A stretch of 64,000 bases of DNA from Pseudorhizobium banfieldiae (GTDB lineage: Bacteria > Pseudomonadota > Alphaproteobacteria > Rhizobiales > Rhizobiaceae). Location of the stretch: assembly GCF_000967425.1 (NCBI RefSeq), contig NZ_FO082820.1, forward strand, positions 2,480,001-2,544,000. The letters run 5' to 3'. Positions 3,458 to 64,000 of the stretch are shown here, in pieces; the stretch's first letter is position 1, and each line of letters starts with the position of its first letter. The translations under genes and the position numbers were made by a program. The notes under the pieces were generated by a model that saw only the letters and a program-made list of their open reading frames with translations, searched no databases and had not been told where the DNA came from.

Positions 3458-4105
3458 TCAGGTCGGGCGGGCTTCGGCGATGAAGACGATCTTGTCCTCG
3501 GACACGACATGCCGGAGATCCATGCCGCATTCCTCCGCCAGAAGGACGGTATAATAGGGCTGGATGGTGTGAGCGTCGACCGGCTCTTCCAGCGTGCCTT
3601 CGGCGATCTCTACAAACTTTGCTGGCACGCGCATCATCCGCCCCTTGATGGTGATGATGAACCGCGCGTCGTATTCCGGATTCTCCAGCGTGACGTCAAT
3701 TGAGCCACCGCGCGGGATGCCGCCATAGGCCACCAGGAAGAGGTTGAGCAGGAGCTTGACCCGGTTCTTGGCCACGATGGCGCGCGGTCCGTTCCACGTC
3801 ACCTCCGTCTTCTTCTCTGCCGATGCGAAATCCTTCGCCGCCTTCTCCGCCTCGCCGGTATCGATCGACGCACCGACGGAACCGGATGCGCCGAAGGCAA
3901 GCCGTGCGAACTTGAGGCGAACGGCGGCATTGAGTGCCGAGGTGCGGATCAGGTCGAGCGCATCGCTGTCGGACGCGCCCTCGTCGAGAAGTTCAAGGCC
4001 GTTGTTGATCGCGCCGACCGGCGAGATGACGTCGTGGCAGACGCGACTGCACAGGAGCGCCGCAAGATCTGGCCCTTCGAGGGTGAGATTCGGGTTCTTG
4101 GGCAT
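3458..4105 (-). CDS. chpT: Histidine phosphotransferase ChpT
   Basis: This 215-residue protein begins MPKNPNLTLEGPDLAALL after an AGGAGAAAG ribosome site; the longer frame reaching 4585 overlaps eipA and is rejected. The phospho-accepting histidine is H24 in CSRVCHDVISPVGAINNGLEL. The rest is a degenerate HATPase-like fold (VKLLLNLFLVAYGGIPRGG). In Caulobacter and Brucella ChpT relays phosphate from CckA to CtrA and CpdR. Finding it beside ctrA puts the relay and its target in one locus. It diverges from eipA across a 168-base gap that has a TGGTAAACC...GTTAAG stretch resembling a weak CtrA site. Confidence 0.92.
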   Translation of the reverse strand: MPKNPNLTLEGPDLAALLCSRVCHDVISPVGAINNGLELLDEGASDSDALDLIRTSALNAAVRLKFARLAFGASGSVGASIDTGEAEKAAKDFASAEKKTEVTWNGPRAIVAKNRVKLLLNLFLVAYGGIPRGGSIDVTLENPEYDARFIITIKGRMMRVPAKFVEIAEGTLEEPVDAHTIQPYYTVLLAEECGMDLRHVVSEDKIVFIAEARPT

Positions 4106-52678: not shown

Positions 52679-53824
52679 TCAGTCGATACCGCCACCGGCT
52701 GGCTGGTCGTCTTCGCCGGCGTCCTCCGGAGTGACGTCGAGAATGGCAGCGTGCATGCTGATTTCTGCCTTGCCGGGACGGCAATTCTCCATGCACGGCT
52801 CTTTCTTCTCCGCATAGAATGGCTCTTCCCGGCGATCGTCGTCGATGAAATTGGGTTCATTAGGCAACTGGATCTCGGTGAAGTTCTCCTTGGACAGCTC
52901 GAATTCCTCGTCCGTCACGACATCGTTGAGGTAGAGCAGATAGGCGGTGAGCGCGTAGACGTCGTCGTCGGAAAGGGAGCGCGCATTGCCGAATGGCATG
53001 GCCCGACGCACATAGTCATAGACTGTGGACAGATAGGGCCAATAGGAGCCGATCGTCTTTTCCGGACGTTCCGCCTGAAGCGTTCCCTGGCCACCGGCGA
53101 GAACCGGCCACCGTCCGACCGCCTCGCCGAAATCGCCATGGCAGGAGGCACAGTTCTCATCATAGATTTCCATGCCATGGGCCACGGTTCCGCGACCCTC
53201 GGGCAGACCGAGGCCGTCCGGGCGCACGTCGATATCCCATGCAGCGATCTCCTCGGGCGTTGCCGCGCGGCCGAGCTTGAGGTGCTTCCCTGCACCGGGC
53301 TCTGCGCCCGCGGGCGCCTCCGCTTTGGCGGGAGCATCCTGCGGGGCCGTGGGGGGCGTCGCTTCCGCTACATCCTCTGCGGCTTTCGTCTCCGGCTCCG
53401 TTACCTTTTCTGTGGTCGGGGCGGTCGAAGCCTGCTTTTCCGAGAACGTCTCAAGATACGCAATGACATTGCTCAGATCATCTTCGGACTTGAGGCCGGC
53501 AAAGGCCATCTTCGTCCCCTTCACGACACCGCGCGGATTGGCGAGAAAGGCCGTCAGATTGTCCTCATCCCAGGCAAGCCCCCCTGCACCGGCTTCGGTC
53601 ATCGCCTTCGAGTACTTGTAGTCTTCAAGCGCCCCGGCCTTGCGACCGACCACGCCATTGAGATGCGGGCCAACCCTGTTCTTTGCCCCCTCTCCCACCG
53701 CATGACAGGCGGCGCACTTGGCGAAGACCTTCTTGCCGGCTTCCGGATCGTCCGCCAATGCACTGGTCGCGCCTGCGAATGCGGCGAGGCCCAGAGCCGC
53801 GATCGTCTTAAGAGATCTCGACAT
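52679..53824 (-). CDS. soxD: SoxD, diheme cytochrome subunit of sulfane dehydrogenase
   Basis: A 381-residue periplasmic cytochrome with signal MSRSLKTIAALGLAAFAGATSALA. Haem 1 is C37-AAC-H41 in a class I domain (25-130). An Ala/Pro/Glu linker (131-180) leads to haem 2, C225-ASC-H229, in the second domain (190-310). The C-terminal tail has PCMENCRPGKAEISMH. It receives electrons from SoxC and passes six electrons per sulfane sulfur to a carrier. The ATG lies inside the end of soxC (17-base overlap), indicating coupling. Confidence 0.94.
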   Translation of the reverse strand: MSRSLKTIAALGLAAFAGATSALADDPEAGKKVFAKCAACHAVGEGAKNRVGPHLNGVVGRKAGALEDYKYSKAMTEAGAGGLAWDEDNLTAFLANPRGVVKGTKMAFAGLKSEDDLSNVIAYLETFSEKQASTAPTTEKVTEPETKAAEDVAEATPPTAPQDAPAKAEAPAGAEPGAGKHLKLGRAATPEEIAAWDIDVRPDGLGLPEGRGTVAHGMEIYDENCASCHGDFGEAVGRWPVLAGGQGTLQAERPEKTIGSYWPYLSTVYDYVRRAMPFGNARSLSDDDVYALTAYLLYLNDVVTDEEFELSKENFTEIQLPNEPNFIDDDRREEPFYAEKKEPCMENCRPGKAEISMHAAILDVTPEDAGEDDQPAGGGID

Positions 53825-55070
53825 TTTCGATGCCTCCGTCCTTGTTGACGTACCACGTCTGGATGCCGTTGTTGTGGTAGATGGAATTCGTTCCGCGCAC
53901 CGATCGCAGCTCGTCCTTCGTCGGCTGAACAAATCCATCCTCGTCGATGGCACGCGACTGCAGAAACAGTTCAGAACCATCCCACTCGAATTCGTAGTAG
54001 AAGCGGTGAAGCGCCTTCGGCAGGCTAGGCCCGTCAATACGGGCGGTATGCCAGTTCCGGCCACCATCCGTCGTCACGTCGACACGCTTGATGCGGCCAT
54101 TGCCGGACCAGGCGAGCCCGCTGATCACCAGTGGTCCCTTGCCGTGCGTGATGGGCGCCTGGGGGCTGGGGTTGGTGATGACGGACTTCACATCCATCAC
54201 ATAGGTGAAGCGGCGAGCCTTCCCGTTGGGGAGAAGGTCCGTGTACTTTGACGTCTCCTCACGCTGATGCCAAGGCTCGTCTCCGATCTCCAGTCGACGC
54301 AGCCACTTGACCCACATATTGCCTTCCCAGCCGGGAACGACTAGGCGGATCGGGTAGCCCTGCTCGGGACGCAAAGCCTCTCCGTTCATGCCGAAGGCGA
54401 CCATGCAGTCGTCCATCGCCTTCTCCAGCGGGATGGAGCGCGTCATCGCGGAGGCGTCCGCACCCTCGGCGAGCAGCCACTTGCCCTCCGGCTTGACCCC
54501 GGCTTCCTCCAGGATGGTCCGCAGCGGCACGCCGCTATACATCACGCAATGGATCATGCCATGGGTGTACTGGCAGCCATTGAGCTGTGCGCCCCGCCAT
54601 TCCATGCCGGAATTGGCGGCGCATTCGAGGAAATAGAGCTTGTTCTCGCGCGGAAAACGCTTGAGGTCCGCCATCGTGAAGACCAGCGGCTTCTCGACCA
54701 TGCCATTGATCATGAGGCGGTGCTGGGCCGGATCGATCTCTGCAATCCCGCCATGGTGTCGCTCGAAGCAGAGCCCGCTCGGCGTGACAATGCCGTCCAG
54801 TTCATGCAGCGGCGTGAAGTTGATGGAGGAAACCGCGTCCGACGTCAGCCAGGGGACGTTCTTGCGAACGACATGCGCCTCGAACTGCGATGGCGAACCA
54901 TAGGGACGGGCATCCACTCCCTCACCGAGGTAACGGTTCCAGTCCTGGATCTCGGTGATCAGTGGATCGCCGGCTGCGAAGGCGCCGCCTGCGCCCCCCG
55001 CGATCGCAGCGCCGCCTGCAAGCCCTGCTCGCAGGAAGGATCGGCGGGTGGGATTGGTGTCAGATTTCAT
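53808..55070 (-). CDS. soxC: SoxC, molybdopterin subunit of sulfane dehydrogenase
   Basis: This 420-residue protein has a twin-arginine signal (TRRSFLRAGLAGGAAIAGGAGGAFAA). The sulfite-oxidase fold has the molybdenum cysteine C150 in LYFLECAANSGMEWRG, and a C-terminal Ig-like dimerisation domain follows (GNGRIKRVDVTTDGGRNWHTARID). It oxidises protein-bound sulfane on SoxY. The ATG at 55070 is chosen because GGGAGGAACTG precedes it; an ATG at 55094 is eight codons upstream. A copy of the shared sox element lies 27 bases upstream. Confidence 0.95.
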   Translation of the reverse strand: MKSDTNPTRRSFLRAGLAGGAAIAGGAGGAFAAGDPLITEIQDWNRYLGEGVDARPYGSPSQFEAHVVRKNVPWLTSDAVSSINFTPLHELDGIVTPSGLCFERHHGGIAEIDPAQHRLMINGMVEKPLVFTMADLKRFPRENKLYFLECAANSGMEWRGAQLNGCQYTHGMIHCVMYSGVPLRTILEEAGVKPEGKWLLAEGADASAMTRSIPLEKAMDDCMVAFGMNGEALRPEQGYPIRLVVPGWEGNMWVKWLRRLEIGDEPWHQREETSKYTDLLPNGKARRFTYVMDVKSVITNPSPQAPITHGKGPLVISGLAWSGNGRIKRVDVTTDGGRNWHTARIDGPSLPKALHRFYYEFEWDGSELFLQSRAIDEDGFVQPTKDELRSVRGTNSIYHNNGIQTWYVNKDGGIENVEIS

Positions 55071-55096
55071 CAGTTCCTCCCGAACAGATGACACAG

Positions 55097-55123
55097 ATAA
55101 ACATTCAATTTTTCCTATATATC
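55097..55123. promoter_or_regulatory. Sox-region shared element, soxB-soxC gap copy
   Basis: 27 bases with ACATTCAA on the plus strand and TATATATC at the other end, in an 86-base gap. It matches the soxX-upstream copy at 21 of 27 positions when read on the minus strand. It suggests that soxCD has its own SoxR-type control. Confidence 0.55.
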
Positions 55124-55156
55124 AGGGCGCGCTACTCCTGCCAATGCGGCATGAGC

Positions 55157-56857
55157 CTAGATTTTGCGGCTTTCCACTTTGACCGATCGATTTTCCTCGA
55201 CCGTCACGACCGGATTGCGGGCAAGAAACTCCTCGACCACGTCCCAGATTGCTGGCCCTTCAGTTGCCTCGTTGATGGACGCCCAGCCGGCCACGGTATA
55301 TTCCTTCGACGCCTCGATCGGCTCGCCGGTCTTGAGCAGCGTCATTCCCGAAATGCGCGAACCCATCTCGCCTTCCGGATTGATCGCATAGCCCATGCCG
55401 CCGACACGGACCATGTCGCCACCCTGCTGATAGTAGGGATCCTTGTTGAACAGGTTGTCGGCCACGTCCTCCAGCACATCCTTCAGCGTCTGGCCGGTCA
55501 TCGTGTTGCGGTAGGCGCTGGGATACGTCATCGAACATGCGTTGTGCACATCCTCCACCGTGATCTTCTGGCCGGGCAGCACGGACGTGCCCCACCGGAA
55601 GCCCGGCGAAAGCGAAATGTCCGCCTCCCGGACATCGAGCAGGGCCTGGCAGATGAGATCGTCAAAGGTGCCGTTGAAATTGCCGCGGCGGTAAAGCAGG
55701 CTCTCCGTGGTGGCCAGCTCGCGCGACAGCTCGGCCTCATACGGCGCCCGAATGTCAGCAATGAGCTTCGCCATATCGGCGTCCGGCTTGATGACGTCGG
55801 AGAAGACCGGGATCAGCTTGTGACGATATCCCTTGAGAGCACCATCCTGCACGTCGAGGTCCAGGCGCGTCACGAACTTGCCGTGCGATCCGGACGCGAT
55901 CAGCAGCGTCTTGCCGACGATGACAGGCTCAGGGATTGCGTCATGGGTATGGCCCGTGAGGATGACATCGATCCCTTCGACACGCGCGGCAAGCGCGCGA
56001 TCCACGTCGAAGCCGTTGTGGGAGAGCAGCACGACGATGTCGGCTCCCTCCTCGCGGGCCGCAGCCACGTTCTTCGCAACCTCTTCCTCGCGGATGCCGA
56101 ACGACCAGTTGGGGAACATCCAGCGCGGGTTTGCGATCGGCGTATAGGGAAAGGCCTGACCGATGACGGCGATCTTGGCGCCGCCCTTCTCGAACATCTT
56201 GTAGGCGTCGAAGGCGGGCTCGTCCCATTCGGCATCGAAGATGTTGCTGCCGAGGAAGGGGAACGGCAAGCCGTCGATGATTTCCTGGACTCGCTCCGTG
56301 CCGTAGGTGAATTCCCAGTGCCCGGTCATGGCGTCCGGCGAAAGGCTGTTCATGGCATCGACCATGTCCTGCCCCTTGGTCTGGAGCGACGTGTAGCTGC
56401 CCTGCCAGGTGTCTCCGCCATCGAGGAGGAGCACGTCCTCGCCACGCTCGGCGCGCACCTGCTTCACGATGGTGGCGATCCGATCAAGACCACCCATCTT
56501 GCCGTAGCTTCTCGCGAGTGACACGAAGTCTTCCGACGTGAAGGCATAGGCTTCCGGGGTGCCCGGCTCGATGCCGTAGAGCTTCAGGAAGTCCGCTCCC
56601 GAAACATGCGGCGGCAAGCCGGCGACGCTACCGACGCCGAGATTGACCGAAGGCTCCCGGAAGTAGACCGGCATGAGCTGGGCGTGAATGTCCGTGAGGT
56701 GCAGGATGGTGACATTACCGAGGGGCTCAAAGGCCAGCAGGTCCTGCTCGGACAGGGACTGTTGCGCCGCGACGCGCGACCACCGGCCGGCGAGGCCGGA
56801 CCCGAGGATCGCCGACAGGGCGGCTGCGCCCATGAGCATCTCTCGACGTGAAAACAT
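55157..56857 (-). CDS. soxB: SoxB, sulfate thiol hydrolase
   Basis: A 566-residue periplasmic enzyme of the 5'-nucleotidase/metallophosphoesterase fold. The twin-arginine signal is FSRREMLMGAAALSAILGSG. The metal site has D56 and H58 in ILHLTDIHAQLMPVYFREPSVN, then LLLDGGDTWQGSYTSL, VVLLSHNGFDVD and ILTGHTHDAIPEP. It hydrolyses the terminal sulfonate of SoxY-bound thiosulfate to sulfate using two manganese ions. It follows soxA by 71 bases on the same strand. Confidence 0.96.
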   Translation of the reverse strand: MFSRREMLMGAAALSAILGSGLAGRWSRVAAQQSLSEQDLLAFEPLGNVTILHLTDIHAQLMPVYFREPSVNLGVGSVAGLPPHVSGADFLKLYGIEPGTPEAYAFTSEDFVSLARSYGKMGGLDRIATIVKQVRAERGEDVLLLDGGDTWQGSYTSLQTKGQDMVDAMNSLSPDAMTGHWEFTYGTERVQEIIDGLPFPFLGSNIFDAEWDEPAFDAYKMFEKGGAKIAVIGQAFPYTPIANPRWMFPNWSFGIREEEVAKNVAAAREEGADIVVLLSHNGFDVDRALAARVEGIDVILTGHTHDAIPEPVIVGKTLLIASGSHGKFVTRLDLDVQDGALKGYRHKLIPVFSDVIKPDADMAKLIADIRAPYEAELSRELATTESLLYRRGNFNGTFDDLICQALLDVREADISLSPGFRWGTSVLPGQKITVEDVHNACSMTYPSAYRNTMTGQTLKDVLEDVADNLFNKDPYYQQGGDMVRVGGMGYAINPEGEMGSRISGMTLLKTGEPIEASKEYTVAGWASINEATEGPAIWDVVEEFLARNPVVTVEENRSVKVESRKI

Positions 56858-56928
56858 TCATGCACTCCTTGGCGGGTGCAGCCCATGCTGCACCCTGACA
56901 AAATCATCTGCGTTTGTATCGCCGCCGA

Positions 56929-57783
56929 CTACTGGCGAACGGCCGGCGTCTCGACGGAGAGGCCCGTCCCACGCCAGGTCACGTAGACCTCGAGCGCCAT
57001 CAACTCATCGGAGAATGCCGCAGGCATCTCGGCACGAGTGTCGCGAATGCAGCCGCGGAAGCGGTTGTGGATCGAGACCATGCCGCCGGTATTGAAGCGA
57101 TAGGTCGGGAAGCCGTTGTTCTGCCCCTGACTGAGATGGTCCGCCCGTATGTACTTGCCCATGCTCTGTTCGTGGCAGGAGGCACAGGAGAAGTCGAGCT
57201 GGCCGGTGCGCGTGTAGTAGAGCTCCTTGCCCTTGTCCCACCAGGATTGCATCTCCCCTTCCTTGAGGTCGATCGAGACTGGTGTGCCGAGAGACTGGTG
57301 CTTGATATAGGTGGTCAGCGCCACCTGCCCCTCGGCATCGAACTTGTAGGGCTCCGCACCCATCTGTTCGGTGCGACAGTGGTTTATCTGGAGCTCGAGG
57401 TTCTTCGGCTTGTTTGCGGCGGCGTCCCATTTGGGGAAATGCGCGCCAACATCCTTCATCGTTTCCGACGCGTCGTTGTGGCAAGAGGCGCAGGATTTCC
57501 CTGCGGTGCCCTCCACGGTATTCCAGATTTCCTCGCCCCGCTCGACCGACAACATGCCTGGATTGGCGAAGGAATCGGCTTCCGTCGCCCGCGTCTCAGC
57601 TTCCCGGAAAAGCCAGCCCGACAGCACTTCGTCGAAGGGATGCCCCTCGGGTGCCTTGGCCCGTGTGATGATCGGCGCGCCGTCGATCTCCAGGCTGTCG
57701 TCGACCGGGTCTGCATAAGCGACCATGGCCAAGCTCGAAATCGATGACATTCCGGCCAGCACCAGGACAGAAATTTTCCTCAT
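56929..57783 (-). CDS. soxA: SoxA, diheme c-type cytochrome subunit of SoxXA
   Basis: A 284-residue periplasmic protein with signal MRKISVLVLAGMSSISSLAMVAYA. Two haem motifs, C98-ASC-H102 and C200-ASC-H204, plus C245 in NRFRGCIRDTRAEMP, the persulfidated cysteine ligand of the active haem. It couples thiosulfate to the SoxY cysteine with SoxX. It is of the diheme type. The ribosome site TTGGGAGGGG is strong, and the frame upstream of 57783 is not conserved. Confidence 0.95.
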   Translation of the reverse strand: MRKISVLVLAGMSSISSLAMVAYADPVDDSLEIDGAPIITRAKAPEGHPFDEVLSGWLFREAETRATEADSFANPGMLSVERGEEIWNTVEGTAGKSCASCHNDASETMKDVGAHFPKWDAAANKPKNLELQINHCRTEQMGAEPYKFDAEGQVALTTYIKHQSLGTPVSIDLKEGEMQSWWDKGKELYYTRTGQLDFSCASCHEQSMGKYIRADHLSQGQNNGFPTYRFNTGGMVSIHNRFRGCIRDTRAEMPAAFSDELMALEVYVTWRGTGLSVETPAVRQ

Positions 57784-57859
57784 CGTTACCCCTCCCAAGA
57801 TAACACCGCCCTCAGGCGAACCGGATTGCGAAGCCCGCCGGATTCCGGCGGGCAATTTC

Positions 57860-58189
57860 TCAGTTGACGGTGATCTCGTGCTCATCCGTGTAGACAGAGC
57901 CGTCGTCATCGGTCCAGGTGAACTTGAACGTGCCGCTTTCGCTCACCTTGGCGGTGAACTCGAAATAGGGGTTCGCCGAAATTGCCGGGTCAATGTCACA
58001 CGAGAAGACCGGTGCGCCGTTGAACTCGCAGGCGAACTTGTTGATGATCTTCCGCGGGATCACCTTGCCTTCCTTGTCCTTCCGCTGACCGGATTCCATT
58101 TCGTGGCTGATCAGGGTCTTCAGCGAGATCACCTCGCCTGCCTTGGCTTCCTTCGGCACCTTGATCCGCGGCTTTGGTTTTGCTGCCAT
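57860..58189 (-). CDS. soxZ: SoxZ, partner of the sulfur carrier SoxY
   Basis: A 109-residue protein, MAAKPKPRIKVPKEAKAGEVISLKTLISHEMESGQRKDKEGKVIPRKIINKFACEFNGAPVFSCDIDPAISANPYFEFTAKVSESGTFKFTWTDDDGSVYTDEHEITVN, with the complete SoxZ fold and no signal peptide. It is exported bound to SoxY through SoxY's twin-arginine signal. The gene follows soxY by 26 bases. Confidence 0.95.
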   Translation of the reverse strand: MAAKPKPRIKVPKEAKAGEVISLKTLISHEMESGQRKDKEGKVIPRKIINKFACEFNGAPVFSCDIDPAISANPYFEFTAKVSESGTFKFTWTDDDGSVYTDEHEITVN

Positions 58190-58215
58190 CTCAAATTACT
58201 CCCTTGTCGATCCCG

Positions 58216-58665
58216 TCAGCCGCCGCAGCCGCCGATGGTGACCTTGACTTCCTTCTTGTCCATGAAGACCGAGCCGTCTGCCATCTTGGCGACGGCGATC
58301 ACGTTCTGCGTCTTCGCGAGGCGCATGCGAGTGGTGGCTGCCGCAGTTCCGCTCATCGCGGTAAAATGGAACGTCGCGACGTCTGGGTTGGGGTTGCCGT
58401 CTGCAACGAGCAGGACCGACTCCACCAGATCACCGTCGATCATCGCGCTTTCCACCTCGACCGACACCGGTACCGTATTGCCGTTCTCCGCAATCTCCGG
58501 GGCGGTAAGGGTGATCTTGCCGGTCTCCGGCTTCTTGCCGCCGGTAAACTCCATGATGAACTTGTCCGTAGCCTCGACATCGGCGAGGGCAATGCGCGTG
58601 CCCGCCACCGACATCAGCGCGAATCCGGCTGAAACGCCGAGCATCTGACGCCTGGTGATACTCAT
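58216..58665 (-). CDS. soxY: SoxY, sulfur-carrier protein
   Basis: A 149-residue protein with twin-arginine signal SITRRQMLGVSAGFALMSVAGTRIALA. The carrier cysteine is C147 in the C-terminal swinging arm IGGCGG, the exact SoxY hallmark. The sulfur intermediates stay attached to this cysteine throughout the cycle. It is co-transcribed with soxX upstream and soxZ downstream. Confidence 0.96.
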   Translation of the reverse strand: MSITRRQMLGVSAGFALMSVAGTRIALADVEATDKFIMEFTGGKKPETGKITLTAPEIAENGNTVPVSVEVESAMIDGDLVESVLLVADGNPNPDVATFHFTAMSGTAAATTRMRLAKTQNVIAVAKMADGSVFMDKKEVKVTIGGCGG

Positions 58666-58690
58666 AATTCTTCTCCTCTTTCCGGAAATC

Positions 58691-59155
58691 TCACTCGGGT
58701 TCCTTCAGCGTACCGAGATACGCGACCACGTCTTCCACCTGCTGCGCCGTCAGTATGGTCTTGCCCTCCAGATCCTTGCGGGGGTTGATCCCGTAGTCGA
58801 GGCTGTAGAAGGCCGGCATGACGGTTTGCTCTGTGAAGATGTGCTTGGCATTCACCACGATCGCCCGCAGTTCCTCGGCCGACCATCGATCAGCCACACC
58901 ATCGAGGGATGGCCCCACGTTGCCGTGAAATTGCTCGTTCTCGAGCGGCGTCACCGCATGACAGGCAAGACAGTTGCCGAGGCCTCGATTGGCGAGCACC
59001 TTGGCGCCTTCCTCCGGGTTGCCCGGCACGCCCGTCAGCGACTGACCGATGCTCATGTCCTCAAACTTCACATCAGTGGGCGCGATGTCGGACGCTATTG
59101 CGACCTGCGAGCCGAGAACACCGGCCATGACGGCACAGACGAAGAAGCGATGCAT
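58691..59155 (-). CDS. soxX: SoxX, monoheme c-type cytochrome subunit of SoxXA
   Basis: A 154-residue protein with signal MHRFFVCAVMAGVLGSQVAIA. Haem motif is C62-LAC-H66, with M113 in QTVMPAFY as likely distal ligand, giving electron exit from SoxA. GGGAGGACTCGACAC precedes the ATG at 59155; the upstream extension is not part of the family. It heads the soxXYZAB(CD) unit, and a shared 27-base element lies 88 bases upstream. Confidence 0.95.
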   Translation of the reverse strand: MHRFFVCAVMAGVLGSQVAIASDIAPTDVKFEDMSIGQSLTGVPGNPEEGAKVLANRGLGNCLACHAVTPLENEQFHGNVGPSLDGVADRWSAEELRAIVVNAKHIFTEQTVMPAFYSLDYGINPRKDLEGKTILTAQQVEDVVAYLGTLKEPE

Positions 59156-59242
59156 GTGTCGAGTCCTCCCAAACTCGTCGAACCTGAACGGCGGCTCGAG
59201 TCTTGACCGAGACGATAGCTTCATGCCCTGCAGCTATCAATA

Positions 59243-59269
59243 GATAAATATGAATTCTTGAATGTTTCT
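59243..59269. promoter_or_regulatory. Sox-region shared element, soxW-soxX gap copy
   Basis: 27 bases containing GATAAATATGAAT and TTGAATGTTT on the plus strand. The soxW-soxX intergenic region is a known SoxR binding site in the related Pseudaminobacter sox cluster, so this is a likely SoxR operator. Confidence 0.65.
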
Positions 59270-59277
59270 GTCGGCAG

Positions 59278-59868
59278 CTATTCCTCCGCACCCAGCCTGC
59301 CCGCTGCCCGCAATTCTTGGATGATGCGCGCGTGATAGGTCTGGAAGTGCTCGTCCCCCTCGTAGCCCTTCTCGCGTACCCACCGGAACATGTTGAGGAA
59401 CGTCCATTTCCCGAAGGCACCCGGCATGGTCGCAACGGCGGCCTCGCTGACGGGAACATCGCCGGTCACCTCCTCGGGGAAAAAGACGATGGTCGGCGTG
59501 AAGACATAGCCCCACTTCCGGGCAGCACTTTTCTCGGTCAGCGTCTCTCCGTCGAGATCCGTCACCTCCTCGTCGCCGAACATGTTGTACTGGACCACCA
59601 TGAAGTTCGCCTTGATGTAGTCGCGAACCTCCGGGTCGGAGAGGATCTTCTCGTGCATCTCCCGACAGTAGATGCAGCCGCGCTGTTCGAAGACGATTGC
59701 AAGCCGTTTTCCCGCGGCCTTCGCGTCCGCGACATCTTCCTTGATGTCGCGGAACGTCATTGAGAACCAGTCTTCCTTGTGAAGACCATCTTCGCCCACA
59801 GTCACCGCACGGGCAGGCAGGCTCGCCACCACGACCGCGAGCAGGGTCAGGCCCAGAAACTTCAACAT
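59278..59868 (-). CDS. soxW: SoxW, periplasmic thioredoxin-like protein
   Basis: A 196-residue protein with signal MLKFLGLTLLAVVVASLPARA. The thioredoxin-like domain has redox pair C65-IY-C68 in IVFEQRGCIYCREMHEKIL and the cis-proline region YVFTPTIVFFPEE. It is reduced by SoxV and keeps Sox thiols reduced. GGAGGAGAGAAG precedes the ATG. A longer frame overlapping soxV is rejected. Confidence 0.92.
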   Translation of the reverse strand: MLKFLGLTLLAVVVASLPARAVTVGEDGLHKEDWFSMTFRDIKEDVADAKAAGKRLAIVFEQRGCIYCREMHEKILSDPEVRDYIKANFMVVQYNMFGDEEVTDLDGETLTEKSAARKWGYVFTPTIVFFPEEVTGDVPVSEAAVATMPGAFGKWTFLNMFRWVREKGYEGDEHFQTYHARIIQELRAAGRLGAEE

Positions 59869-59879
59869 CTTCTCTCCTC

Positions 59880-60614
59880 CTATCCGATGGACTGGAAGAC
59901 CGGGAAGGTCTCCAGCAGCCAGAATGCTATCGCCGACATCTGGCCTGTGACGAACAGGATGCCGGTCATGATCAGGAACAGGCCGAGCGCAATCTCCACC
60001 TTGCGCATGTGCCTCCGGAACCGTGCCGCCCAGTCCAGAAAGCGGCTGGCGAAGACGGCCGATGCAATGAAGGGAAGGCCGATCCCCAGCGAGTAGGCCG
60101 CGAGTAGCAGGCTGCCCTTTGCCGCCGTCCCCTCCCCGCCTGCGACGAAGAGAATGGCGGCAAGAACCGGGCCGACACAAGGGGTCCAGCCGAAGGCGAA
60201 GGCCAGACCCATGACGAAGGCACCGGCGAACCCGGCAGGCTTCGACGCCACCTGGACGCGCGCTTCCCTGTAGAGCAGGCCGATCTGGAAGACTTTCAGG
60301 AAGTGCAGACCCATCAGGATGATCAGAACGCCCGCGACGACGGACAGCACATCGAAATACTGCGCGATCGTCTTGCCGATGACGCTGGCGGTCGCGCCAA
60401 GCGCAACGAAGACCGTTGAAAAGCCAAGGACGAAGAACACCGCCGACAGCACGATCTGGCGACGTTCGGCTGCACCCGGATTGCTGTCCTTGAGTCGATC
60501 GAAGCTCACGCCGGCAAGCCATGCGAGGTAGGGCGGCACGATGGGCAGGACGCAAGGCGACACAAAGGAGAGAAGCCCCGCCAGGAACGCCCCCCACAGA
60601 CTGACGTCAAGCAT
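59880..60614 (-). CDS. soxV: SoxV, CcdA-type thiol-electron transporter
   Basis: A 244-residue, six-helix membrane protein of the CcdA/DsbD-beta family. Redox cysteines are C21 in LSFVSPCVLPIVPPYLAWLAG and C146 in AFGWTPCVGPVLAAILF. It moves reducing equivalents from cytoplasmic thioredoxin to SoxW. GGGAGGAATTGC precedes the ATG at 60614. It is divergent from soxS across 67 bases containing a shared sox element. Confidence 0.93.
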   Translation of the reverse strand: MLDVSLWGAFLAGLLSFVSPCVLPIVPPYLAWLAGVSFDRLKDSNPGAAERRQIVLSAVFFVLGFSTVFVALGATASVIGKTIAQYFDVLSVVAGVLIILMGLHFLKVFQIGLLYREARVQVASKPAGFAGAFVMGLAFAFGWTPCVGPVLAAILFVAGGEGTAAKGSLLLAAYSLGIGLPFIASAVFASRFLDWAARFRRHMRKVEIALGLFLIMTGILFVTGQMSAIAFWLLETFPVFQSIG

Positions 60615-60650
60615 GCAATTCCTCCCGAACACGCCGCACTATTGACTGTC

Positions 60651-60677
60651 CTATGTATTCAGAAATTGCTATGTATT
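60651..60677. promoter_or_regulatory. Sox-region shared element with 9-base direct repeat, soxV-soxS gap
   Basis: CTATGTATT occurs at 60651-60659 and again at 60669-60677 (18-base period). Read on the minus strand, the whole 27 bases match the MBL-DUF302 copy at 18 of 27. It ends four bases before the soxS ATG. The soxS-soxV gap is a known SoxR target in the related Pseudaminobacter cluster. Confidence 0.65.
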
Positions 60678-60681
60678 GCAA

Positions 60682-61056
60682 ATGACGCTTTCGATCCTTC
60701 ACCGCACAATTCTCCTGCTGGGACTTCTTTCGGCTCTTGCACTGCCGGTGCGAGCGGATGCCCAGACGCAGCTCATCATGCTGGAGCAGCCGGGCTGCCC
60801 CTGGTGCGCAAAGTTCAACGCCGAGATCGCGCCAGCCTGGCCGCGCACTGCAGAAGGCGCGCGCGCACCGCTTCGCCGGGTCGACATCACGCAGCCGTGG
60901 CCGGAGGATCTTCCGAAACTTGAACCGGAGCGGTTCACGCCAACCTTCATCCTCATCGATGACGGCAAGGAACTGGGGCGCTTGCGGGGATATCCCGGCG
61001 ACGAGTTCTTCTGGTTTCAGATCGGTGAACTCATTGACAGGCTTCCCAAAGACTAG
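60682..61056 (+). CDS. soxS: SoxS, periplasmic thioredoxin-like reactivation protein
   Basis: A 124-residue protein with signal MTLSILHRTILLLGLLSALALPVRADA. Redox pair is C39-PW-C42 in IMLEQPGCPWCAKFNAEIAPAWP; FTPTFILIDDGKELGRLRGYPGDEFFWFQIGELI is the rest of the fold. In Paracoccus SoxS reactivates SoxYZ. No good ribosome site precedes the ATG, and a TTG lies two codons earlier. The start region overlaps or abuts the operator-like element, so translation may be weak or regulated. Confidence 0.88.
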   Translation: MTLSILHRTILLLGLLSALALPVRADAQTQLIMLEQPGCPWCAKFNAEIAPAWPRTAEGARAPLRRVDITQPWPEDLPKLEPERFTPTFILIDDGKELGRLRGYPGDEFFWFQIGELIDRLPKD

Positions 61057-61109
61057 CTATCCACGGAAGCAAGCCGCGGCACCGGAGACGTGACACCAGG
61101 AGCATTCGC

Positions 61110-61466
61110 ATGAGCCTCCCTCAGTTCAGCACGCTGCAGACGCAGGAGGAGCGAGAGAAGCTCTTTGCCCAGGCGCGCAAGGCCAGCGAACTGCTGAAGG
61201 CGCTATCGCACGAAGACCGACTGGTCATTCTCTGCCTTCTGACTGAGGGGGAAAGGTCCGTCTCCGAGCTTGAGGAGACTATGGGCATGACCCAGGCCGC
61301 CGTCTCCCAGCAGCTAGCACGCCTGCGATTCGATCGACTGGTGAATACGCGCCGGGATGGCCGCGTAATATACTATTCGCTCGCCAGCACGGAAGTCGCC
61401 CCGGTTATCGGCACCCTATACGACCTGTTCTGCGCACCTATCAGGAATAGCGAAACCGAAGCCTGA
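61110..61466 (+). CDS. soxR: SoxR/BigR-like ArsR-family repressor of sulfur oxidation
   Basis: A 118-residue winged-helix regulator. DNA-binding core is LKALSHEDRLVILCLLTEGERSVSELEETMGMTQAAVSQQLARLRFDRLVNTRRDGRVIYYSL. Cysteines C42 and C108 sit at the positions of the dithiol switch in BigR and SqrR, which form di- or polysulfide bonds with reactive sulfur. It should leave the operator when sulfane sulfur accumulates. It is between soxS and soxT on the same strand, as in related Rhizobiales sox clusters. Confidence 0.92.
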   Translation: MSLPQFSTLQTQEEREKLFAQARKASELLKALSHEDRLVILCLLTEGERSVSELEETMGMTQAAVSQQLARLRFDRLVNTRRDGRVIYYSLASTEVAPVIGTLYDLFCAPIRNSETEA

Positions 61467-61526
61467 CGGCCTCGACAGAGCGGCAATCGCCGAGAAAGGC
61501 AGATCTCGGTCTGCAGGAGGAGTTCG

Positions 61527-62618
61527 ATGGAGGAAATCGCCTCATCAGCCTGGTTCTTGCCTCTGGCTGGCCTGCTCGCCGGCACCCTGCTTGGTTACGT
61601 CGCCAGAAGCCAGCGCTTCTGCACGATGTCCGCACTTGAACGGTACTGGTATGTCGGCGACGGAACCGGCCTGCGCACCTGGATCCTGGCGGCAACATCG
61701 GCGCTGCTGTTCAGCCAGACGCTCCAGGTATTTCAATTCGCCGCCATCAACGAGAGCTTCTATGTCCATTCGAGCTTTGCCTGGACCGGCGCCATCCTCG
61801 GAGGGTTGATGTTCGGGATGGGCATGGCTCTCGTCGGCACTTGCGGCTTCGGTGCGCTCGTGAGGCTCGGCGGTGGAAGCCTGAGATCCCTTATCGTCCT
61901 TCTCGTGCTGGCCGTGACTGCTCTTTCGGCCCAGAAGGGACTGGTCGCACAGGGGCGGGTCTACATCATCGACAATCTCGCCATCGATTTCGGCTTTGCC
62001 GGCGGCCAGTCGCTGGGTCTGATCGCCAGCTATTTCGCGGGAGTTGATCTGAGCATCCTCGTCACACTCCTGCTGGCGGCACCTCTTCTCTTCTGGATCT
62101 TCTCCGATGGCAATTACCGACGTCGGCCAAGATCAATCGCAGCCGGTGTCGTGATTGGCGCCATCATCAGCTTCGGCTGGGTCGCCACGACCCTCGCCTC
62201 GGAGCAATCCTTCGAGATCGTCCAGATCGAGGCTGCCTCTTTCGTCGTTCCGGTTGCCGATACCCTGATGCAGTTGGTGGCGTTTACCGGCACCGTCCCC
62301 GACTACGGCGTCGGTCTCGTCGTCGGCGTGGTACTCGGCTCCACCATCCATGCCTTGGCGCATCACACCGTGCGCTGGGAGGCTTGTGACGATGCCCGGG
62401 AATTGGGCAGGCATCTGTCAGGGGCGGCCTTGATGGGCATAGGAGGCGTATTTGCGATGGGCTGCACCATCGGTCAAGGCGTCACGGCCGTGTCGGCGCT
62501 GGCACTGTCAGCGCCGCTGGTCTTCATCTCGATCGCATTCGGAGCCCGGATCGGACTAGCCTACTTGATCGAAGGCTCCGGCCTGGCCGCCTTCCGCTCC
62601 AACGCCGCCGGAGCCTGA
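61527..62618 (+). CDS. soxT: SoxT, YeeE/YedE-family sulfur-compound transporter
   Basis: A 363-residue protein with about nine membrane helices and the paired YeeE motifs. Conserved cysteines are C32 (RSQRFCTMSALERYW), C106 (GMALVGTCGFGALVRLGGGSLRSL) and C313 (AMGCTIGQGVTAVSALALSAP). In the thiosulfate transporter TsuA such cysteines guide substrate. It probably imports or exports a thiosulfate-like molecule and may provide the signal to SoxR. GGAGGAG precedes the ATG. Confidence 0.92.
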   Translation: MEEIASSAWFLPLAGLLAGTLLGYVARSQRFCTMSALERYWYVGDGTGLRTWILAATSALLFSQTLQVFQFAAINESFYVHSSFAWTGAILGGLMFGMGMALVGTCGFGALVRLGGGSLRSLIVLLVLAVTALSAQKGLVAQGRVYIIDNLAIDFGFAGGQSLGLIASYFAGVDLSILVTLLLAAPLLFWIFSDGNYRRRPRSIAAGVVIGAIISFGWVATTLASEQSFEIVQIEAASFVVPVADTLMQLVAFTGTVPDYGVGLVVGVVLGSTIHALAHHTVRWEACDDARELGRHLSGAALMGIGGVFAMGCTIGQGVTAVSALALSAPLVFISIAFGARIGLAYLIEGSGLAAFRSNAAGA

Positions 62619-62625
62619 CGACCGC

Positions 62626-63561
62626 CTATGCAAGCGGAACGAAGGAGTAGGCTCCATCCTTCGCCTCGACGGTACCTGCGCCGGAATGGTCGAAGTGATA
62701 CCCGATCAGGTGCAGCTTGTCGGCGACGAGTCGGTCAAGCAGGCGGCGGCGCGTCTCCACACCCTTGTCGGGATCCTGGTCGCTGCCGGTCCGCCATTCC
62801 GGATGCTGGAAGGAGATGGTGGCGTGACTCAGCGCATCGCCGCCGATCAGCGTACCTGCTCCATTGCCATGCACCAGGAACGAGAGATGACCCGGCGTGT
62901 GACCAGACGTGTCGATCGCCTCCACTCCGGCCAACACCTCCTGCCCCGGCTTGATCATCTCCACCTTGTCCTCGATCGCGGCGAAGCGGTTCTGCGCACC
63001 GACCACGAAGGTCTGGCGGTCCGCAGGAACGCTGTCCAGCGTATCCTTGGACGACCAATAGGCCCATTCCGCCTCACCGATCTGGTAGCGCGCCTCGGGA
63101 AAGACGAGCTCGTCGAAGTCGTCCGTTACACCCCAGAGGTGATCGGGGTGGGCATGCGTGAATAGCACGTCCGTGACCTCGGCCGGGTCGATGTCCGCAG
63201 CAGCCAGGTTTTCGAGAAGCTTCCCCGCCGTCGGCATGAAGTTCGCTCCCGACCCGACGTCGAAGATGGCGAGCCGGTCGCCCTGGCGCAGCAGGGTGAC
63301 GTTGCAGGGCGGCTGCAATGCGTCCGTGGGCAGGTCGTTTGCTTTCAGGAAGGCCTCGAGCTCCTCCTTCGGGACGTCCGGGTAAAGAAAGTTCATCGGC
63401 AACGAAAGCGCCCCGTCGCTGATGACGATCAACTCGCCGTCGCCCACCTGCTGCCGCGTGACCGCAAGACTGCGGAACGGCATGAGCGTGGAACCTGCGG
63501 CCAAGGCAGTGGCCATGAGAAAGTGGCGTCTGCCAAGAGCGCTTAATCTGTTCGGGGTCAC
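62626..63561 (-). CDS. Exported metallo-beta-lactamase-fold hydrolase of the sox region
   Basis: A 311-residue protein with twin-arginine-like signal GRRHFLMATALAAGSTLMPFRSLA. The metal site is THAHPDHLWGV, then SGHTPGHLSFLVHGNGAGTLIGGDAL. The GTG at 63561 is chosen because TGGAGGAATATGAA precedes it; ATG 63579 is six codons upstream. SoxH of Paracoccus is an MBL protein of this kind, and other members hydrolyse persulfides or thioesters. A shared sox element lies 20 bases upstream of the start. Confidence 0.82.
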   Translation of the reverse strand: MTPNRLSALGRRHFLMATALAAGSTLMPFRSLAVTRQQVGDGELIVISDGALSLPMNFLYPDVPKEELEAFLKANDLPTDALQPPCNVTLLRQGDRLAIFDVGSGANFMPTAGKLLENLAAADIDPAEVTDVLFTHAHPDHLWGVTDDFDELVFPEARYQIGEAEWAYWSSKDTLDSVPADRQTFVVGAQNRFAAIEDKVEMIKPGQEVLAGVEAIDTSGHTPGHLSFLVHGNGAGTLIGGDALSHATISFQHPEWRTGSDQDPDKGVETRRRLLDRLVADKLHLIGYHFDHSGAGTVEAKDGAYSFVPLA

Positions 63562-63580
63562 TTCATATTCCTCCACCATC

Positions 63581-63607
63581 AATACATATATATTTTTGCA
63601 TATTTCA
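63581..63607. promoter_or_regulatory. Sox-region shared element, MBL-DUF302 gap copy
   Basis: AATACATATATATTTTTGCA followed by TATTTCA, in the gap between the divergent MBL and DUF302 genes. It matches the soxV-soxS copy at 18 of 27 positions, and 12 positions are invariant in all four copies. Confidence 0.55.
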
Positions 63608-63656: not shown

Positions 63657-64000
63657 ATGACCAGGTGGATGTACGCATGTCTTGTTGCCGGTTTGGCGCT
63701 GTCGCCAATGGGAGCCAGTGCGCAGGATTCTCCTTTGACGATTCGCGAGACGGACGCGGCGTTTGAAGACGTCGTGGCTGACCTGCAGGATGCAATCGTC
63801 AATCGGGGCTATGTGGTGGACTACCATGGCCGGATCGGCGATATGCTGGCGCGGACAGCTGATGATGTCGGTGCCGCAAAAGCGCTCTATCGCAATGCCG
63901 AGTTCATGCAGTTCTGCTCCGCGACGGTCTCTCGAAAGGCGATGGAAGCTGATCTGGAGAATATCGGCTTCTGCCCCTATGTCCTCTTTGTCTACGAAGC
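63657..64000 (+). CDS. DUF302-family exported protein, cut by the right edge
   Basis: ATG at 63657 after GCGGGAGGAACTC opens a frame to the window end (114 codons visible). The signal is MTRWMYACLVAGLALSPMGASAQ. The DUF302 domain starts at ETDAAFEDVVADLQDAIVNRGYVVDYHGRIGDMLARTADDVGAAKALYRNAEFMQFCSATVSRKAMEADLENIGFCPYVLFVYE. DUF302 proteins have a TT1751-like fold and occur near sulfur genes. The function is unknown. The 3' end is outside. Confidence 0.82.
   Translation, partial: MTRWMYACLVAGLALSPMGASAQDSPLTIRETDAAFEDVVADLQDAIVNRGYVVDYHGRIGDMLARTADDVGAAKALYRNAEFMQFCSATVSRKAMEADLENIGFCPYVLFVYE

Follow-up and report, generated by a model that had tools for sequence, protein, structure and literature searches.

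Predicted SoxR operators in the sox gene cluster of Pseudorhizobium banfieldiae, including candidate sites at soxC and at a metallohydrolase/DUF302-like gene pair

Introduction

SoxR repressor systems are found in Pseudaminobacter salicylatoxidans and Paracoccus, where SoxR reportedly binds the gap between soxW and soxX. Here we describe four 27-bp AT-rich elements in the sox cluster of Pseudorhizobium banfieldiae that are very probably operators of SoxR, an ArsR-family sulfane-sulfur repressor which is encoded in the same cluster (61110-61466). The window that was analyzed is a stretch of 64,000 nucleotides (NCBI RefSeq assembly GCF_000967425.1, contig NZ_FO082820.1, positions 2,480,001 to 2,544,000 of the forward strand), and positions refer to this window unless another sequence is named.

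A study on Hyphomicrobium (PMC10451225) cites regions bound by SoxR in Paracoccus and P. salicylatoxidans, and SoxR-regulated promoters have been placed between soxS and soxV (PMC5748708). In Hyphomicrobium, SoxR is a sulfane-sulfur-responsive repressor whose DNA binding is controlled by a sulfur bridge between two conserved cysteines; it bound four of five intergenic probes in electrophoretic mobility shift assays (PMC10451225). For SqrR of Rhodobacter capsulatus the operator consensus ATTC-N8-GAAT has been given, with a similar sequence for YgaV of E. coli (PMC9774250).

Results

A 27-bp motif in four gaps of the sox cluster

The elements are located in the soxB-soxC, soxW-soxX, soxV-soxS and MBL-DUF302 gaps (Table 1), where MBL stands for a metallo-beta-lactamase-fold hydrolase gene and DUF302 for a DUF302-like gene. 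An initial annotation of the window had aligned the four 27-mers without gaps. This is correct provided that the minus strand is taken for the elements at 55097 and 60651, an orientation that had been left unstated. The twelve invariant positions listed at that time (2-4, 6-8, 12, 17, 18, 20, 21 and 25) were found again, and counting by hand gave the same identities of 21/27 between the soxB-soxC and soxW-soxX elements and 18/27 between the soxV-soxS and MBL-DUF302 elements. The statement that the 52-64 kb region contains no similar block also holds, since at one mismatch the sole extra match was an overlapping register of the motif at 59236-59259. The annotation had further stated that two of the copies lie in gaps bound by SoxR in Pseudaminobacter. 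The soxW-soxX gap is reportedly one of these, and for the soxS-soxV gap the statement agrees with the promoters named in the literature (PMC5748708).

The pattern formed by the twelve positions was derived from the four sites themselves, and the independent tests of it are those on relatives described below. With up to two mismatches allowed, it matched the window eight times: at the four exact sites and, in shifted register, four more times at two of these sites. In 100 dinucleotide-preserving shuffles the mean was 0.36 and the maximum 3. The exact pattern occurred four times in the 4.58 Mb genome, always at the four sites, and a reversed control pattern had no exact match there; at up to two mismatches the genome contained 52 matches versus 14 for the reversed control. 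When matrices were built from any three sites, the fourth ranked in place 4 of 127,948 window strand-positions, just behind the training sites.

A matrix made from all four sites (the window matrix) scores them at 37-42 bits. They also ranked 1-4 genome-wide, with 17.9-19.8 bits, by a sequence model of 120 sites from relatives (R1), which is not fully independent because these sites had been harvested with the window matrix. The next genome matches by R1 scored 12.8 and 12.7 bits at an expectation value (E) of about 1. A fifth genomic site upstream of a dCache chemoreceptor gene (C1:1064181-1064207; L091 4182-4208) reached 24.4 bits with the window matrix and was treated as chance-level on account of its E-value of 0.9 by R1.

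The element is an imperfect inverted repeat of 24-27 bp, roughly AWAYAT-N12-ATRTWT. The 120 sites from relatives align gaplessly with the dyad at positions i and 27-i, and AT is found both at positions 6-7 and at positions 20-21 (AT-N12-AT) in 118 of them.

Conservation in related sox clusters

Related loci were collected in two rounds. A SoxR query led to 49 loci, of which 14 (L030-L043) have syntenic sox clusters, and 32 more loci came from genomes of the family (35 fetched, duplicates L154, L165 and L166 dropped). Three of the resulting 46 loci (L175, L178 and L183), which have SoxR and no sox genes, were dropped before counting, and the other 43 hold sox clusters. The window matrix, based on the four window sites only, was applied with a match threshold of 18 bits. 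It found 136 matches in the 43 loci (784,782 bases), 128 of them in the same four gaps if sites at most 300 bp from MBL are included. Sixty column-permuted matrices gave a mean of 5.4 and a maximum of 24 matches in the same sequences. Among the first 14 loci the threshold was reached in 40 of 45 target gaps, against a mean of 1.05 and a maximum of 10 for 200 column-permuted matrices; 75 of 78 other intergenic gaps remained below it, and the remaining three proved to be rearranged equivalents of target gaps.

These controls bear on the explanation that the elements share no more than the AT-richness or the core-promoter sequence of intergenic gaps. In favor of it, each of the four has a high AT content and is located next to a likely promoter, and chance matches to the strict pattern or at 18 bits do occur in AT-rich DNA. 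However, the permuted matrices, which have the same composition, find little, and the other intergenic gaps of the first 14 loci are nearly devoid of matches; shared AT-richness was ruled out by the column permutation. The element moreover keeps its dyad, while its place relative to the predicted -35 and -10 elements differs between soxX and soxV as judged by eye. A reading as sigma-70 promoters only was rejected for this lack of a fixed place and because at soxX the dyad stands apart from the promoter-like elements. Taken as a whole, this explanation is highly improbable.

Considering loci in which both flanking genes were found, the soxC-soxB site scored at least 18 bits in 34 of 39, the soxX-soxW site was present in 35 of 42, the soxV-soxS site in 30 of 39 and the MBL-DUF302 site in 17 of 20. 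The seven misses at soxX and nine at soxV score 10.6-17.9 bits, so that degenerate sites may remain there. Where MBL occurred and DUF302 was not found, 11 of 20 loci had a site. Judging from their translations, three loci with DUF302 missing (L169, L171 and L181) appear to encode a second YeeE-like transporter divergent from MBL, with the predicted operator retained; a change of neighbor thus need not remove the site from MBL.

Four of the eight matches outside the target gaps are in rearranged equivalents: soxY-soxS in L033, where soxX, soxW and soxV were not found; soxT-MBL in L036, where MBL is inverted; soxV-soxR in L041, where soxS was not detected; and upstream of DUF302 in L177, where this gene is located elsewhere. 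The others are in L039, L173 and, twice, L174. L174, which lacks the soxC-soxB site, has two sites between the matches to soxD and soxC (3466-3556). Twelve of the 136 matches, being identical sequences or outside the gap classes, were not carried into the set of 124 reference sites, and 120 of these form alignment A1 (two sites of L157 and one each of L161 and L173 were left out).

The soxC site also occurs outside these loci. Ahrensia (L056) has it at 35.7 bits, and in other families of the order it was present in 18 of 29 regions upstream of soxC (one at 18.0 bits), which were the best-scoring 29 of 81 genomes with a SoxC match and were picked irrespective of SoxR. Three of these 18 regions showed no soxB beside soxC.

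With the relatives' matrix, the two best matches in both P. pantotrophus and P. denitrificans are the soxW-soxX gap (41.0 and 38.8 bits) and the soxS-soxV gap (16.8 and 17.5 bits). The best matches of Rhodobacter and Ruegeria are at soxS-soxV (20.0 and 21.6 bits), followed by weaker ones at soxW-soxX (13.4 and 14.1 bits), and Ruegeria has 17.9 bits beside MBL.

The relatives' model was also run on 26 genomes of the family, 22 of which gave matches. At E≤0.1, 41 of 42 matches are at most 7 kb from soxR, the single one away from it being G025:C104:147143. Many of the matches inside clusters are training sites, and for several genomes scoring was limited to 150 first-look candidates; what is informative is the scarcity of matches outside sox clusters. 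SoxR (E≤1e-25) and the operator pattern are both missing from two genus-mates (G047 and G140), and G047 gave no SoxC at E≤1e-120 either; the distribution of the sox cluster in the genus seems patchy.

Observations that weigh against the operator assignment

Apart from the partial dependence of R1 on the window sites, a number of observations weigh against the assignment of the elements to SoxR or limit its reach. The related loci are phylogenetically non-independent. About 1.1 matches of 18 bits are expected per genome with an order-1 window background and about 30 per Mb at 45% GC, and at that frequency single matches near the threshold mean little. Of the 35 loci L044-L078, several of which come from distant AT-rich organisms, seven have a match of 18 bits or more with the relatives' matrix, and L056 alone has it at a sox gap; L183, a SoxR-like locus without sox genes, reaches 24.4 bits. 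The strict pattern was found in 45 of 199 family genomes with 16 of 60 matches at most 7 kb from a SoxR-like gene, a scan of little use in which the 16 include the four sites of the window. Because of chance 18-bit matches in AT-rich DNA, our argument rests on position and numbers and not on single matches.

Other points concern individual gaps. The soxC site is missing in five of the 39 related loci, and since all five score below zero it is truly absent there. It is likewise absent from 11 of the 29 regions of other families and from all six plasmid-borne clusters (L222-L227), two of which are from Paracoccus. In one of the plasmid-borne clusters, that of Indioceanicola (L227), all matches stay at or below 10.1 bits. 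On the Ruegeria plasmid (L225, 10239) a match of 19.5 bits lies in the soxA-soxB gap, where none was expected and where, unlike in this cluster, the close relatives examined have no site. Nine of the 20 loci with MBL and without DUF302 found have no site at MBL. Finally, the exact SqrR consensus ATTC-N8-GAAT occurs nowhere in the window and in two of the 120 relatives' sites; it is present in eight of the 18 soxC sites from other families.

On balance, the motif built from the four sites is enriched beyond AT-rich background in the genome and in related sox loci. The proposal of the initial annotation that all four are SoxR operators is supported by this enrichment, by the conservation gap by gap and by the Paracoccus matches. 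As to its extension of the regulon to soxCD and MBL/DUF302, the predicted sites upstream of soxC and MBL are widely conserved, but not universally.

Genes and promoters around the elements

The leftward gene order is soxD-soxC-soxB-soxA-soxZ-soxY-soxX-soxW-soxV and the rightward order soxS-soxR-soxT, followed by MBL leftward and the DUF302-like gene rightward. Both cysteines of SoxR, Cys42 and Cys108, align with cysteines of the best match in the PDB, 13ct/6o8l, the latter of which we take to be SqrR. The MBL-fold hydrolase, presumably SoxH-like, is 42% identical to the product of the MBL gene downstream of soxD in Paracoccus. For the DUF302-like protein no Pfam or NCBIfam family was obtained at E≤0.001; a tblastn match of 50% identity lies within the annotated DUF302 gene of the Ruegeria sox cluster. 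In the 60651-60684 region the operator ends 4 nucleotides before the first soxS ATG, which leaves no space for a ribosome-binding site, and soxS may be leaderless or start elsewhere. The genes blh and bigR and a YeeE/YedE-like gene, of the persulfide detoxification type, are located 2.7 kb past the window end (C1:2546693-2549182; L087 6693-9182).

Table 1. Predicted operators, promoter and genes of the sox region. Gene starts are our reading of the sequence; ORF, open reading frame; nt, nucleotides.
Feature	Position	Strand	Remarks
SoxR operator (predicted), soxB-soxC gap, upstream of soxC	55097..55123	-	edge 26 nt before likely soxC ATG 55070
SoxR operator (predicted), soxW-soxX gap	59243..59269	+	directly upstream of predicted soxX -35 hexamer; 87 nt before likely start 59155
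SoxR operator (predicted), divergent soxV/soxS gap	60651..60677	-	36 nt before likely soxV start 60614; 4 nt before first soxS ATG (60682)
SoxR operator (predicted), divergent MBL (SoxH-like)/DUF302-like gap	63581..63607	+	19 nt before likely MBL start 63561; 49 nt before DUF302-like start 63657
Second register of motif with one mismatch	59236..59259	+	overlaps soxW-soxX element, covers -35 hexamer
Predicted soxX promoter, TTGATA-17-TATCGT	59212..59240	-	abuts soxW-soxX operator
ORF containing soxD	52679..54067	-	extends 5' beyond real start; matched by tblastn in relatives
soxC ORF	53808..55094	-	likely start ATG 55070 after GGAGG; TIGR04555 sulfite dehydrogenase SoxC
soxX ORF	58691..59224	-	likely start ATG 59155; TIGR04485
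soxV ORF	59880..60632	-	likely start ATG 60614; PF02683
soxS, ORF from TTG	60676..61056	+	first ATG 60682
soxR, ArsR/SmtB-family repressor	61110..61466	+	118 aa, Cys42 and Cys108; PF01022
soxT, YeeE/YedE-like sulfur transporter	61527..62618	+	PF04143
MBL-fold hydrolase	62626..63582	-	Tat-like signal, likely start GTG 63561; PF00753
DUF302-like protein	63657..63998	+	continues beyond window, 152 aa in all; tblastn

The predicted soxX promoter is the sole sigma-70-like match in the 54.0-63.9 kb region, but shuffled sequences gave a mean of 2.0, so it is weak alone. Both of its elements are visible in the consensus of 36 aligned sites, and this promoter-like consensus is found beside the soxX site; the other three sites show weak elements only. 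At soxV the operator may, on a weak reading by eye, cover the spacer and the -10 element. The overlapping register at 59236-59259 is possibly a second weak site, but the promoter explains the ATTGAT in the consensus of the 36 sites as well as a second register does. In L032 and L037 the TTGAT next to the soxW-soxX operator forms part of a full TTGAT-N4-ATCAA, presumably an FNR/FixK-type box, hinting at added oxygen control of soxX.

Discussion

Which regulator reads the sites

The sites could wholly or partly be read by a paralogous sulfur sensor, above all a BigR-type regulator, giving a shared SoxR/BigR regulon. Seven further ArsR homologues at E≤0.001 are encoded in the genome; the top two are 42-43% identical, and the one at C1:2548060, 4 kb past the window end, passes the NCBIfam BigR cut-off while its neighbor passes that of Blh. 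Two related repressors of Hyphomicrobium, SoxR and sHdrR, share the DNA fragments that they bind (PMC12423496). Against this, the best match upstream of blh has 13.8 bits versus 37-42 bits for the four sites, which makes BigR unlikely as the main reader. Ten loci with a SoxR-like gene and no sox operon (L045-L054) point the same way, with seven scoring at most 8.7 bits and the remainder 13.3, 13.6 and 19.1 bits by the relatives' matrix, as does the clustering of matches near soxR in the 26 family genomes, within the limits given above. We regard a shared regulon as quite unlikely; from the sequences BigR is disfavored as the main reader, and cross-binding as between SoxR and sHdrR is possible. 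SoxR itself is the preferred reader of all four sites.

Proposed mode of action

We infer that SoxR binds the elements and represses by occlusion, and that soxCD has a promoter of its own. When reduced sulfur is lacking, a SoxR dimer would sit on each operator, beside or over the promoter, and block soxVW, soxSRT, soxXYZAB, the internal soxCD promoter and the divergent MBL and DUF302-like genes. Repression of soxSRT from the soxV/soxS operator would amount to autoregulation of SoxR. Once sulfur from thiosulfate enters the cytoplasm, Cys42 and Cys108 would become bridged by sulfane sulfur and SoxR would leave the DNA, a release postulated by analogy with Hyphomicrobium SoxR (PMC10451225).

Two of the four sites suggest that SoxR directly controls soxCD and the metallohydrolase/DUF302 pair. 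Alternatively, the soxC and MBL sites may bind SoxR without controlling separate promoters, soxCD being read through from soxX. The soxB-soxC gap gave no sigma-70-like match, and clusters without a soxC site exist. The annotated soxB-soxC gaps of Rhodobacter and Ruegeria measure 15 and 24 bp, so separate soxCD control is not essential. Yet a functionless site would hardly have been kept upstream of soxC in 34 of 39 related loci and 18 of 29 regions of other families, and we consider this alternative unlikely. Direct control of soxCD by SoxR, the reading that we prefer, would lie at the choice point between truncated and complete thiosulfate oxidation.

Significance

The elements appear to be of an ordinary kind and well identified; new are the two further predicted target sites, at soxC and at MBL/DUF302. 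In the openly accessible literature that was searched, which does not include the primary SoxR papers of 2005 and 2007, the accessible parts name no operator at either place. The analysis provides a specific, conserved candidate SoxR operator sequence for rhizobial-type sox clusters and a short list of targets, and would tie the uncharacterized MBL (SoxH-like) and DUF302-like proteins to sulfur sensing. A DUF302 gene of unknown function has been recorded in the sox clusters of Sulfitobacter in a survey (PMC11034169).

As a more speculative and on present indications doubtful proposal, soxCD may have its own SoxR operator and promoter in most of the examined clusters of the order to which the window belongs (probably Hyphomicrobiales), but not in Paracoccus. 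SoxR occupancy would then switch between a truncated and a complete Sox system, with the MBL and DUF302-like proteins as accessory parts of the circuit. If true, the sulfur dehydrogenase would be derepressed separately from SoxXYZAB.

Comparison with known systems

The four predicted operators can be set beside several known systems. Like the SqrR operator they show the half-site spacing of ATTC-N8-GAAT, but their half-sites are ATAG/ATAT and GAAT/GCAT, so the window departs from the SqrR consensus. With the BigR/blh regulon the locus shares a related ArsR sensor, the BigR/blh cluster being located just past the window, whereas the best match before blh is far below the four window sites. SoxR and sHdrR of Hyphomicrobium denitrificans are likewise sulfane-sulfur-responsive ArsR repressors with several intergenic targets that include sox genes (PMC10451225, PMC12423496). 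The Sox system of that organism is, however, truncated and lacks SoxCD, and the likeness noted here is at the level of the regulon. The closest agreement is with the SoxR systems of Pseudaminobacter salicylatoxidans and Paracoccus pantotrophus, which have the same repressor family and the same cluster order. Two of the four sites are in the gaps corresponding to soxS-soxV and soxW-soxX of these organisms, and unlike their operators the window has additional sites upstream of soxC and at MBL/DUF302.

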